A stretch of 25,866 nucleotides of DNA from a virus: positions 1 to 25,866 of the IMG/VR virus record IMGVR_UViG_3300034374_009393. One strand, written 5' to 3'. The notes beneath the pieces are model-generated. The model had not been told where the DNA came from. It ran no database searches and saw only the letters and a program-made list of their open reading frames with translations. Of the stretch, positions 3,152-7,867 are shown one piece after another. Both the position numbers and the translations under genes were made by a program. Within the stretch, counting starts at the first letter, position 1, and every line of letters starts with the position of its first letter.

Positions 3152-4462
3152 ATGTCTCTATTAAATCAATACATTCTTTCGTATATCAGTGAAGTTATCA
3201 TAACTACTCCTGATGGTCAGGAATATGATATTCTTCCTTATATTAGTACTATAAATCTTTCTGAAAATTTATATAGTTATTTTGTTGAAGGTGTAATAGT
3301 TTTAGAAGATACCCCATCTACTAGATTTTTATTAAAAGTAAATACACAAGGAACATACGACACAAAAATAAATTTTTCTTTTTCAGGAGCAGAAGGAAAA
3401 GAAAAAACACCACAAGAAGAAATATCAATAAATGATTCTGATTATTCTATTAGTGAAATAGAATCATCTGCAACCCAAGATAAAACTCAGAATTTGGTTA
3501 TAAGATTTTTCCATAATAGTTTTATAGAAAATAAAAAAAAATTAATTAGTACTTCTTTTCAACAAGAAAAAATATCTTCTATTGTTCGGAAATTAGGGAA
3601 AAAAATAAACTTAAAAATGAATATTGAGGAGACATCTGACAGTATTACAACTGTTCTTCCTTATGGTACATGCACTCAACATATTGTAAATTTAACAAAA
3701 TACGCAAGAAGAGAAAAAAATAATAATGATTGTAATTATCTTTTTTGGCAAGATTTAAAAGGGAATCATAATTTTTTAAGTTTATCTGAATTGTATTCTC
3801 AACCTCCTTCATTTGGCAATGATATAAATACAGGATTTATGTTTGGAAATTATTTTTCGAATGATTACAGCATAAATAGAAGATTGGTATCCAAGCATAC
3901 ACCAATATCAAATCCAGTAACCAAAACACATTTTGGTGGTGCATATAAATCAGGAATAGTATTCGTTGACAAATTTTTAAAAAACGGGTCTGAATATATT
4001 GAATACGATTTAAGAGATGAATGGGATAAACAAACACATTTAAACGAAAATTTTATAATACCAAAAAATTCTTCTTTTTGGGAAGAAACAACATCTTCTT
4101 CTTTGACTAGATTGTATACTTCTTCAAGACATTCGTATTGTTGCAATGAAAATAAAGGTGGACAAAGAAATGAAAGATTTGTTGCATCTAGGCGAATGAG
4201 TCAACTAGCACAATTACAACAAATAGGATTAAAATTTAAAATATCAGGAAATTCCAATCTAGATGAAATTTCAGCAGGAAAAATTATATATTTTGGAAGA
4301 CCTTTAAATTATGATCCTGAAAGTATTAAACAAGAAGATATTTATTATAGTGGAAAATTTTTAATAACATCTGTTATTCATATGATAAAAAGAAACAAAA
4401 TGGGAATATATGAATATTCATGTGAAATACAATGTTTTAAAGATTCGATAGGAGAAGAATAA
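3152..4462 (+). CDS. gp27: Baseplate central hub protein gp27-like
   Basis: This 436-residue protein fits gp27 (391 residues in T4), the trimeric cylinder at the centre of the baseplate that holds the gp5 spike and continues into the tail tube. Matches along its length include an N-terminal beta domain with DGQEYDILPYISTINLSENLY, the NYLFWQDLKGNHNF segment near residues 191-204 (T4: KFVFVWQDIMGVNMM), and 'RRMSQLAQLQQIGLKFKISGNSNL' near 347-370 (T4: [22 protein letters not shown]). The C-terminal SGKFLITSVIHMIKRNK strand is equivalent to T4 'FYVDEVIHELSNNN'. It lies directly before gp5, its structural partner: the TAATG junction overlaps by one base. No convincing ribosome-binding site precedes its ATG, so translation may be coupled to gp53, which ends 3 bases earlier. 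Confidence 0.82.
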   Translation: MSLLNQYILSYISEVIITTPDGQEYDILPYISTINLSENLYSYFVEGVIVLEDTPSTRFLLKVNTQGTYDTKINFSFSGAEGKEKTPQEEISINDSDYSISEIESSATQDKTQNLVIRFFHNSFIENKKKLISTSFQQEKISSIVRKLGKKINLKMNIEETSDSITTVLPYGTCTQHIVNLTKYARREKNNNDCNYLFWQDLKGNHNFLSLSELYSQPPSFGNDINTGFMFGNYFSNDYSINRRLVSKHTPISNPVTKTHFGGAYKSGIVFVDKFLKNGSEYIEYDLRDEWDKQTHLNENFIIPKNSSFWEETTSSSLTRLYTSSRHSYCCNENKGGQRNERFVASRRMSQLAQLQQIGLKFKISGNSNLDEISAGKIIYFGRPLNYDPESIKQEDIYYSGKFLITSVIHMIKRNKMGIYEYSCEIQCFKDSIGEE

Positions 4463-5304
4463 TGGAATTATGGGAAGGAATAGTTGTTGATCGAGATGAC
4501 CCTCTTCAAGCAGGAAGAGTTCGTGTTCGTATTTTTGGATACCATTCTCCTGATATAAACGAAATTCCAAATAATCTTCTTCCTTGGGCAACGGTTCTTT
4601 TGCCTTCTACAAGTGCAAATAACAGTGGAATAGGAGAAACTCCAACAGGTTTGGTTTTAGGATCTAGGGTTTTGGGTTGTTTTTTCGATAAAGAAGCACA
4701 ACAGTTATTAGTTATAGGATCGATTATACAGCCACATTTAGATTCTGATAATACAGTTGGTTCATTTGATGGGGAAAATAATGATGGGTTTTTACCAGTT
4801 GAAGAAAATTTTCCAACTACCCCAACTGAAAATGTTTATACTGTCCCTATTCCTGGTGGTTCTCCTTTATTAATAGATAATACAGAGAAAAAATTTCCTA
4901 GAAGAATATATAAAAATAATATTTCAACTTCTAAAATATCAACAGAAACTGACCACACAGTAGAAAGAAAACAGAAAAAACTTGAAGATGGTGGTCACAT
5001 TGATACTGAAATTCCTATCGCAATATGTGATAGTGAAAAATCTCAAATAGTATCAGATGAAAACACAAATACTTCTAGGGTAAGTTTTGCAGAGTACAAT
5101 GAAGATTTATTATTTACTAGTAACAAAAAATCTATAATGGAAAATTTTTCTTCTTATAAAAAAGAGATAAAAAATACAAATGATAAATGTGTTTATACTA
5201 ATAAAATTAAAGATTATTCTGATGATATTTTATTGCAAAAAATATTAGCAAAGTTTGAAGAATTTTTACAAGAACATTTTAACGAAACACAAAACACAGA
5301 ATAA
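4462..5304 (+). CDS. gp5: Baseplate spike gp5, N-terminal OB-fold part
   Basis: Residues 1-100 are the gp5 OB-fold that docks the spike onto the gp27 hub. VVDRDDPLQAGRVRVRIFGYH near the start corresponds to T4 'VVEDRMDPLKLGRVRVRVVGLH'. LLPWATVLLPSTSANNSGIG corresponds to 'KLPWMSVIQPITSAAMSGIG', and TGLVLGSRVLGCFFDK to 'TGPVEGTRVYGHFLDK'. FPRRIYKNN (about residue 145) aligns with T4 'YPRRLGNDT', the linker before the lysozyme domain. From there the protein diverges into a polar Lys/Glu/Asn-rich tail with no lysozyme motif, and it stops at 280 residues. T4 gp5 is 575 residues long and carries lysozyme and needle domains in the same chain. The needle domain is here in a separate gene at 5713. 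A helical C-terminus (LLQKILAKFEEFLQEHF) could mediate assembly. Confidence 0.88.
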   Translation: MELWEGIVVDRDDPLQAGRVRVRIFGYHSPDINEIPNNLLPWATVLLPSTSANNSGIGETPTGLVLGSRVLGCFFDKEAQQLLVIGSIIQPHLDSDNTVGSFDGENNDGFLPVEENFPTTPTENVYTVPIPGGSPLLIDNTEKKFPRRIYKNNISTSKISTETDHTVERKQKKLEDGGHIDTEIPIAICDSEKSQIVSDENTNTSRVSFAEYNEDLLFTSNKKSIMENFSSYKKEIKNTNDKCVYTNKIKDYSDDILLQKILAKFEEFLQEHFNETQNTE

Positions 5305-5315
5305 GGTATTTTACA

Positions 5316-5711
5316 ATGTCAACAAATAAATGTGATCCTGTATTAAATATACAATCTCAACAAGTAACAATAGAGCAAATACAAAATTTATTAAATATTG
5401 CATCTAATAGACCGATAACAATACAAGATATTGATTTGCTTTTTTCTGATTCAAATCAGGAAATTCAGAATAATAATATTTCCCGAGAAACATCAGCAGC
5501 ATCAGGAGCATCACAAGAACAATCTGAATTTTCTTCTCCTAATTCAAGAGGAACTTCTGGTGCATCAGATGTATCATCTTCTCAAAAAACATCTTGTTTT
5601 TCACCAAAAACAGTAAGAGGAGGGTGGAACATGCCTGAAACTTCTCATGGAAAAGTAAATGGAGTTCCAATAGAAGAAAGAGAATTGAACTGCGACTGTA
5701 CAGGAAATTAA
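5316..5711 (+). CDS. Ser-rich small protein between the two gp5 parts, unknown function
   Basis: I do not recognise this 131-residue protein. Residues 1-50 look ordered (IQSQQVTIEQIQNLLNIAS, ITIQDIDLLF). Residues 55-95 are a Ser/Gly/Ala/Gln-rich, probably flexible stretch (AASGASQEQSEFSS, GTSGASDVSSSQ). The C-terminus has a compact TVRGGWNMPETSHGK segment and a Cys pair, CDCTGN; further Cys residues are at 6 and 97. It is exactly where T4 gp5 has its lysozyme domain, between OB-fold and needle, but no lysozyme or PAAR motif is visible. Placement suggests a spike component or linker; this is inference. AAGG precedes the ATG, and the stop lies one base before the needle gene start, so the three genes look co-translated. 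Confidence 0.7.
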   Translation: MSTNKCDPVLNIQSQQVTIEQIQNLLNIASNRPITIQDIDLLFSDSNQEIQNNNISRETSAASGASQEQSEFSSPNSRGTSGASDVSSSQKTSCFSPKTVRGGWNMPETSHGKVNGVPIEERELNCDCTGN

Positions 5712-5712
5712 A

Positions 5713-6834
5713 ATGTCAGACCAAGAGTTTTTATTTAAAAAATCAACAATATATCCATTTAATCATACTAAAAAAACAGAAAGTGGACATTCTTTTGAAT
5801 TTGATGACAATAAAGGAAGTGAAAGGATAAGATTACAACATAAATCTGGATCTGAAATAGAATTTCATCCAAATGCGGATTGTTCACATACTATTTTAGG
5901 TTCTTTTTTTTCTACAATATATTCTGATAATTGTACCCATGTTTGGGGAGCTAAAACTTTAACAATAAATCGAGAATTAAAACTAATTGTCAGTGCCGAA
6001 ACTTTAGAAAAAGAAGATGAAGATAAAGAATATAATTTAGATGTAGAATTAGGAAAAGGTTCAACTTTAAACATTACAGTAAAAAAAGGAAATTGTAATA
6101 TTATTTTAGATGAGGGTGATGTTAATTTTATCTCTAAAAAAGGAGAAGTTAATCTTTGTCAACATGATGGAAATTTCAAACATTATGTTAATGGAAATTA
6201 TAGACTTGAAGTTACTGGACAAATGGAAGTTGTTGTAGGACAAAATTATATTTCAAAAATAAAAAAAGACAGATATACAGAAATAAATGGAAAATTAGAT
6301 TGGTTAAATATGACCAATTCCGATGCCCATTTGGAATTAACAGGCAACAAACAAGCAACTATAATGAATTCTGATATTTTTTTAAAATCTAATAACTTTA
6401 TATCAAGATCAGAAGAACAAACAATTATGCAAACAGGAATAGCAGGACAAGGAGAATTCACAATATCCTCAATGGGGGATATTAATATAAGTTCTGGCTG
6501 GGATCATATAAATAAGTCAAAATCGTCTAATAATAACCCCCAATTAAATTTATTTGCAAATAAAACAACAAACGGAGGAAATCTTTCAATATTTACAGAT
6601 AATGAGTTTCATGTGATCACAAACGAAGAATGTAAATTTAACATAAAAGGTGGAAAATTTCATGTTAAAGTTGATGAATTAAAAACAAATTGGACAGAAT
6701 CCAGTTCACCCGAAACACCACCAGAAGAGTTATTTTCTCAAATTTATAATGAAAACTATATAAGAGTGCAAAACTATGATTTGTTTTTAGAAAAAGGATT
6801 TCCTGTAATAACTATAAATAAAATAATAATTTAA
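5713..6834 (+). CDS. gp5: Baseplate spike gp5, C-terminal beta-helix needle part
   Basis: This 373-residue protein corresponds to gp5C, the trimeric triple-stranded beta-helix needle that punctures the outer membrane. The N-terminus YPFNHTKKTESGHSFEFDD followed by SERIRLQHKSGSEIEFHP aligns with T4 'YPYVHTMETESGHIQEFDDTPGQERYRLVHPTGTYEEVSP', the region just before the helix. It is followed by short alternating polar/hydrophobic repeats (LNITVKKGNCNIILDEGDVNF, HYVNGNYRLEVTG, ISKIKKDRYTEINGKL) typical of helix turns. In T4 this part is made by proteolytic cleavage of the gp5 precursor; here it has its own start codon. The last 50 residues leave the repeat pattern and may form a tip or a contact to another protein. 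AGGA precedes the ATG by 8 bases. Confidence 0.85.
   Translation: MSDQEFLFKKSTIYPFNHTKKTESGHSFEFDDNKGSERIRLQHKSGSEIEFHPNADCSHTILGSFFSTIYSDNCTHVWGAKTLTINRELKLIVSAETLEKEDEDKEYNLDVELGKGSTLNITVKKGNCNIILDEGDVNFISKKGEVNLCQHDGNFKHYVNGNYRLEVTGQMEVVVGQNYISKIKKDRYTEINGKLDWLNMTNSDAHLELTGNKQATIMNSDIFLKSNNFISRSEEQTIMQTGIAGQGEFTISSMGDINISSGWDHINKSKSSNNNPQLNLFANKTTNGGNLSIFTDNEFHVITNEECKFNIKGGKFHVKVDELKTNWTESSSPETPPEELFSQIYNENYIRVQNYDLFLEKGFPVITINKIII
6812..6820 (+). promoter_or_regulatory. Late promoter candidate before the membrane GAF-like gene
   Basis: CTATAAATA sits at the very end of the needle gene, giving a predicted start near 6826 and a leader of about 23 bases to the TTG start at 6849. Exact consensus, the leading C and close spacing make this the best-placed late promoter candidate on the plus strand. 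It would let the membrane gene and the gp25-gp6 wedge genes be transcribed apart from the hub genes. Confidence 0.55.
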
Positions 6835-6848
6835 GTAAAGGTAAAATT

Positions 6849-7478
6849 TTGGAAAATATAATATTAGAATTAAAAGAACATATAAATTATTTAATTTTAA
6901 CTATTGTTTTTATAGTTCTTACTTTTTTAAAAGACTGGTTAGTTAAGCTATTTAAAATCTTTAAAGAAAAATTTGAACTTAATATAGAAAAAATTACAGA
7001 AAAAAATAATTTAATATATGATTTATTATCAGAAATTAGAGCAAAAACAGATAGTGCTAGAACTTATATAATAGAATTTCATAATGGTGAATATTATTCA
7101 AATGGTGTCCCTATTGTAAAATTTTCTATGACGTATGAATCATGTTCTCTTGGTGTATCATCCCATGCAGATACAACTCAAAATTATATTTTATCCAATT
7201 ATGATGGAATTGAAAATATTATAAAAAATACCGATGAAATCATTCATATAAATAATTTAAAATCTTCTAATTTTAAAGGATATTTACAAGAAAAAAACAC
7301 ATTAGCGATTTATTCGATGCCTATAAGGTCACATAAAAATTATGGAAATGTAATAGGATGTTTTTGTATAGAATGGTGTTCAAGTTCTAAAGTTGACAAT
7401 ATAAATAAAGAAAATGTTTATAACATAAAAGAAAAATACTTACCAATAATTCAAAATTTAGTGAATAAACAAAGATGA
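6849..7478 (+). CDS. Membrane-anchored GAF-like domain protein, unknown function
   Basis: This 209-residue protein has one predicted membrane helix at about residues 12-30 (HINYLILTIVFIVLTFLKDW). A Lys-rich amphipathic helical region at 31-68 follows, then a soluble domain at 69-205. That domain carries TYIIEFHNGEYYSNGVPIVK at 72-91 and, near the end, a GNVIGCFCIEW strand after a SMPIRSH strand. An 'EFHNG ... G-P--K-SMTYE' segment plus closing 'P-----G-VIG-FC-EW' strands resembles GAF-type sensor folds seen in some uncharacterised phage and plasmid proteins; ligand and role are unknown to me. No T4 baseplate protein matches. The start is TTG, preceded by AAAGG, and aligns with the upstream promoter candidate. 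It overlaps gp25 by ATGA, so it is co-translated with wedge genes. A holin-like or membrane-sensing role is speculation. Confidence 0.75.
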   Translation: MENIILELKEHINYLILTIVFIVLTFLKDWLVKLFKIFKEKFELNIEKITEKNNLIYDLLSEIRAKTDSARTYIIEFHNGEYYSNGVPIVKFSMTYESCSLGVSSHADTTQNYILSNYDGIENIIKNTDEIIHINNLKSSNFKGYLQEKNTLAIYSMPIRSHKNYGNVIGCFCIEWCSSSKVDNINKENVYNIKEKYLPIIQNLVNKQR

Positions 7479-7867
7479 AAAAATCAGTAAAAATCACAGA
7501 TTTGTCTTATAGTTTTCTTCCTCATCCAGTAACTGGTAATATTTCTTTAGTTAAAAATGAAGATGCAATAAAACAATCTATAAAAACACTAATTTTTTTA
7601 AATTTATATGAAAAACCTTATAAAAATGATATTAATATTGGTATAAAGTATTTTTTGTTTGAAAATATAAACGCTATAGACAAAGATGAGTTAGAAGAAT
7701 CTATATCAAATATTTTAGCAGTCTATGAGCCAAGAATAATATTAAATTCTGTACTAGTAAATTATTCAGAAAGTAATAATACAATAAATGTTGTTATAGA
7801 TTATAGTATCATAGGAGAAACACCTATTCCAGATTCCGTATCCTTCACATTTGGTATAAGTAGATGA
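7475..7867 (+). CDS. gp25: Baseplate wedge subunit gp25
   Basis: At 130 residues this is almost the size of T4 gp25 (132). It has the GPW/gp25 family pattern: an N-terminal 'DLSYSFLPHPVTGNISLVKNEDAIKQSIKTLI' type segment, then LNLYEKPYKNDINIGIKYFLFE, a central helix (DELEESISNILAVYEPRI) and closing beta strands with IPDSVSFTFGI. gp25 binds gp6 and is the sheath-initiating wedge protein; its homologues are TssE in type VI secretion and gpW in P2. The first codons overlap the end of the membrane GAF-like gene, and its own stop overlaps the gp6 start (ATGA at both ends), so synthesis is tightly coupled. Confidence 0.92.
   Translation: MKKSVKITDLSYSFLPHPVTGNISLVKNEDAIKQSIKTLIFLNLYEKPYKNDINIGIKYFLFENINAIDKDELEESISNILAVYEPRIILNSVLVNYSESNNTINVVIDYSIIGETPIPDSVSFTFGISR

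Follow-up and report, generated by a model that had tools for sequence, protein, structure and literature searches.

A viral family of GAF-fold proteins with a predicted membrane anchor and a possible link to phage lysis

Cyclic nucleotides or other small molecules are common ligands of GAF domains; the GAF domains of cyanobacteriochromes and PDEs are grouped in Pfam family PF01590. A GAF-like soluble domain, preceded by a single membrane helix and a connecting helix, is also the architecture of holin T of phages T4 and T5 (class III, PF11031). The T4 protein is oriented N-in, C-out: its N-terminal amphipathic helix lies in the cytosol and its globular domain in the periplasm (PMC12162936; PMC8385771). 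Its pores require the amphipathic helix (PMC12162936). In T5-type phages, holin T precedes the endolysin gene and overlaps it by 4 nt. The protein family described below corresponds to phrog_14038, phrog_30125 and phrog_38864, which are listed in PHROG as being of unknown function; its fold, predicted topology and gene neighbourhood are new here. A literature search on GAF domains together with phage holins returned nothing relevant.

The gene and its setting in the baseplate operon

The window, i.e. the whole stretch of 25,866 nucleotides that was analysed (virus record IMGVR_UViG_3300034374_009393, positions 1 to 25,866), is a T4-like run of structural genes reaching the small terminase. Tail tube and head-closure genes lie on its minus strand and are followed by the tube cap, gp53, a gp27-like hub gene, the gp5 OB domain, a 131-aa ORF, the gp5 beta-helix, the GAF gene, gp25, gp6 and more tail genes (Table 1). 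The location of the GAF gene inside a baseplate operon, as proposed in a sequence-only reading of this DNA, was thus borne out, with gp5-type spike genes on its 5' side and gp25 and gp6 on its 3' side. In the upstream region (4462-6834), gp5 is divided between two genes, one for the OB domain and one for the beta-helix. The 131-aa ORF separating them was without family match, and no lysozyme domain was found in this region.

Table 1. Features of the GAF gene, its product and its immediate neighbours in the window
Feature	Position	Strand	Basis or remark
Membrane-anchored GAF protein CDS	6849..7478	+	209 aa, TTG start; homologues, dN/dS
Predicted transmembrane helix, about residues 11-32	6879..6944	+	Hydrophobicity, model; K/R-rich stretch follows
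GAF domain, residues 46-208	6984..7472	+	AlphaFold2, structure matches; Pfam GAF in relatives
Strand 1, EFHNG turn, strand 2 (most conserved element), residues 71-99	7059..7145	+	Alignment
AAAGG, likely ribosome-binding site	6837..6841	+	7 nt 5' of TTG start; sequence
gp5 beta-helix/spike gene	5713..6834	+	Directly upstream of GAF gene
gp25 baseplate wedge gene	7475..7867	+	ATGA overlap with GAF gene

The position between gp5 and gp25 was conserved within the window lineage. Likewise, the TTG start and the ATGA overlap (7475-7478, the last four bases of the GAF gene, shared with the start of gp25) were kept in relatives that are only 58-61% identical. A TTG start is in itself no special feature of this gene, since 3 of the 19 long plus-strand ORFs have one. 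The gene had further been credited with a promoter candidate of its own, TATAAATA (6813-6820). As a late promoter, this candidate was rejected because the motif was not enriched over shuffles (13 occurrences in the window for 9.0 expected, 14 of 100 shuffles reaching 13) and because the site was not conserved, being absent upstream of the L003-L005 homologues.

The GAF gene is under purifying selection in its own lineage. Comparison of L003 with L005 gave a dN of 0.08 and a dS of 0.70 (dN/dS about 0.12), and this low dN relative to dS indicates a real and constrained gene; for gp25, the same pair gave a dN of 0.22 and a dS of 0.63. Identity along these two sequences (L003 1-4375 versus L005 2244-7016) dropped from 99.7% in the gp5 beta-helix to 85.6% in the GAF gene and 64.3% in gp25, a pattern suggestive of a recombination breakpoint within the GAF gene or close to it.

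Fold, conserved core and predicted topology

The AlphaFold2 model of the window protein (51 sequences, pLDDT 92.5) displayed a long helix (residues 2-42) that includes the membrane segment, a second helix and then an alpha/beta domain. Solved GAF domains dominated the matches of this model in both Foldseek, with E-values down to 1.4e-6, and VIA-align, where Z ranged from 13.5 to 16.1 among the 50 matches listed, all GAF proteins (16.1 over residues 44-208). The GAF-like domain initially suspected from the letters is therefore confidently predicted at the level of structure. At the sequence level, Pfam GAF (PF01590) was recorded at E<=1 in 34 of the 51 family members (lowest E-value 1.2e-8); taken by itself, the window protein gave no match at E<=1 and did not reach the curated cut-off. 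The model of L098, a relative of the P12024S protein, was also a GAF domain (pLDDT 91.2).

The window protein has its fold in common with the GAF domains of PF01590 but is a stand-alone domain on a membrane helix, without output domain, and carries a conserved EFHNG hairpin that is specific to the phage family. The F, H, N and G of this motif were invariant across the 51 sequences, and mean identity was about 0.8 in strand 1, the EFHNG turn and strand 2, versus 0.43-0.69 elsewhere. The motif singled out in the sequence-only reading is thus the conserved core of the family.

One N-terminal hydrophobic helix was predicted, in agreement with that reading. The amphipathic linker that it had also described was abandoned, its amphipathicity being no higher than that of shuffles, and the same was observed for the approximately ten residues preceding the hydrophobic core. 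Five K/R residues occur in the 15 positions after the core in the window protein and one before it. Mean values were 5 after the helix and below 1 before it in the window lineage (n=6), the marine group (144 loci) and the Mel-JY01 group (81 loci), and in 238 of the 241 loci, among them those of the window lineage, more K/R followed the helix than preceded it. Given the positive-inside rule, this K/R excess makes a cytosolic GAF domain the most likely orientation, topology being predicted here from charge only. Arash and L086 displayed the opposite charge pattern and P12024S was ambiguous.

Among the Foldseek matches was also T4 holin T, in the form of its periplasmic domain (6px4_B, E 2.5e-4, TM 0.68 by target length; a chain length of 141 agrees with the holin construct of 142 residues), and the matches in BFVD included T holins from Proteus and Serratia phages. 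Both types of protein have the same succession of membrane helix, connecting helix and soluble domain within a similar length (200-220 aa). Direct membership in the holin T family was nevertheless rejected. The Phage_holin_T (PF11031) profile matched neither the window protein nor the family members, whereas T4 T itself scored 1.5e-118, and hhalign against the T holin alignment placed the C-terminal strands and helix in register (P 0.0012-0.003) with a probability of only 10-19%. The charge pattern predicts an orientation opposite to that of T4 holin T, and the GAF protein is without the N-terminal amphipathic segment present in the latter. Since no profile match was obtained and the predicted topology and N-terminal features do not correspond, the GAF protein should not be classified as a holin.

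Distribution and lysis-gene neighbourhoods

The family is large, unstudied and almost purely viral. Matches were recorded in 225 IMG/VR contigs in one scan and 107 in another (both sets may overlap), and in a single one of 84,980 prokaryote genomes, the patterns used in the latter search reaching close relatives only. Relatives of the EFHNG protein, for which a profile search had been suggested, are thus encoded in hundreds of viral contigs. The 241 loci that were read formed nine sequence clusters. All 51 family members scanned matched phrog_14038 (5e-8 for the window protein), 50 matched phrog_30125 and 41 matched phrog_38864. No sequence-profile match to the family was obtained in P-SSM2, T4 and T5, nor for the RaK2, GAP32 and pT24 proteins, which were found by fold in BFVD, and no viral relatives were found for L086.

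Lysis genes adjoined the GAF gene in four of ten lineages, namely marine phages, LE1, P12024S and P12002L, the relative in the last one having been found by fold only. This proportion is modestly above chance and suggestive only: its probability would be 0.024 at a rate of 12% per lineage and 0.061 at 16%, both rates being assumed (guesses). In LE1, a phage of the saprophyte Leptospira biflexa, the GAF gene is followed by an M23 endolysin gene with a 4-nt overlap, an arrangement like that of holin T in T5-type phages. In the Nonlabens phage P12024S, it is followed by an M15 endolysin and then by a holin (phrog_3427, E 3e-31), and P12002L displays a 2-helix protein, the GAF-fold protein and an M15 endolysin. 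No lysis gene was found near the GAF gene in the window lineage, L007, the 81-locus group of the Microcystis phage Mel-JY01, LMM01 and Arash.

In large marine phages, a 60-aa holin-like ORF, a 144-aa membrane protein, a lipoprotein and the GAF gene succeed one another with short overlaps. The full set of four genes occurred in a minority of loci. The 144-aa protein was located upstream of the GAF gene in 82 of the 144 marine loci and the lipoprotein-like protein, whose membrane helix is C-terminal, in 62 (overlaps mostly 4-8 nt); the 60-aa ORF was present in 11 of these marine loci, one member matching holin family phrog_9987 (E 1e-9), and PhoH was found upstream instead in 54 of the 144. A lipoprotein ending in a membrane helix has the architecture of a unimolecular spanin. 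To label the 144-aa protein a holin would be a guess, because it matched nothing in Pfam and nothing convincingly in PHROG, and BLAST showed no similarity between it and the holin of P12024S.

An overlapping operon of this marine type (L045 5100-7712) comprises the 60-aa holin, the 144-aa membrane protein, the lipoprotein, the GAF protein, a zinc ribbon and a sigma-like protein, and some lipoproteins of such operons carry an EF-hand-like loop. A second large subfamily (81 loci; L008 5052-7232 and its relatives L112-L191) is located between capsid-region genes and PhoH, which there lies on the other side of the GAF gene than in the 54 marine-cluster loci.

Possible roles of the GAF protein

The best single reading, which we put forward tentatively, is that of a membrane-anchored regulator or partner of phage lysis: the GAF protein may help set the time at which the host bursts, since its relatives repeatedly adjoin cell-lysis genes. 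As a small late-region protein, it would be anchored in the inner membrane of the host through its one N-terminal helix, with the GAF domain most likely facing the cytosol. A cytosolic cue, possibly a ligand, would be read through the conserved EFHNG hairpin or a pocket. The protein would then alter the assembly of membrane lysis proteins, putatively holin or spanin, and this change would set the time of lysis. T4 holin T offers an analogy, as its periplasmic domain takes the lysis-inhibition input; the GAF protein would act from the opposite face of the membrane. Its baseplate-operon position in the window lineage would give late expression together with the tail genes. Lysis timing had already been proposed for the window gene on its own; what favours it now, if indirectly, comes from the four lineages with lysis neighbours and from the fold similarity to T4 holin T, and not from the surroundings of the window gene, where such neighbours are missing.

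A broader version of this idea, according to which phage inner-membrane GAF sensors regulate lysis from the cytosol and share ancestry with the holin T domain in reversed topology, is speculative and on the unlikely side. If true, GAF-gated control of lysis would have evolved in phages towards either side of the membrane.

The baseplate-operon position, together with the 4-nt overlap with gp25 conserved in related sequences, could also point to a virion-associated tether that either fixes the assembling baseplate to the inner membrane or travels in the particle and interacts with the membrane during DNA entry. Arash Gp232, a relative encoded inside a tail operon, was indeed detected in purified particles, through 9 unique peptides and 172 spectra, values similar to those of its tail-gene neighbours (PMC10585845). 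Yet this is weak evidence that the protein is structural, because the Arash particle list of 116 proteins includes ribonucleotide reductases and other enzymes (PMC10585845). Arash is moreover a distant member, in which the charges flanking the helix are distributed differently, and in other lineages the gene is found away from tail genes, in the company of PhoH, a sigma-like gene, thymidylate synthase or endolysin. The sequence-only reading had opposed its membrane sensor to an ordinary virion protein; particle detection bears on that opposition solely through this distant relative. A role as tether is judged unlikely.

Unlikely, too, is a cytosolic sensor or sponge at the membrane that would bind a nucleotide or other small molecule, so as to block either a response of the host or a second phage. 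The ligand-binding habit of GAF domains and the positive charges that predict a cytosolic domain in 238 of 241 loci are compatible with such a role, but no anti-defence neighbours were seen and the gene occurs in structural or lysis regions. Superinfection exclusion, one of the functions suggested earlier, received a weak hint only: the P12002L fold relative (L099 26905-27528) weakly matched the SieA-like superinfection exclusion family phrog_7745 (E 0.0014). 

That the GAF protein is itself a class III holin, directly related to holin T of T4 and T5, is improbable: the shared fold class, the single membrane helix, the endolysin downstream in LE1 and P12024S and the lack of any T holin or GTA-type holin among 12 contigs with the GAF gene speak for it, but profile, predicted topology and N-terminus disagree as described above and, unlike holin T, some family members stand beside separate holins or holin-like ORFs (P12024S and 11 marine loci).

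Even without a link to lysis, the GAF family is viral, widespread and conserved, and has had no function assigned so far. If regulation of lysis is its role, hundreds of environmental phages would carry a dedicated sensor able to couple the timing of lysis to host metabolic state, and T4 holin T, a classic subject in phage biology, would represent one branch of a GAF-domain superfamily. The lysis timing of marine and freshwater phages would then become directly testable via one short gene.
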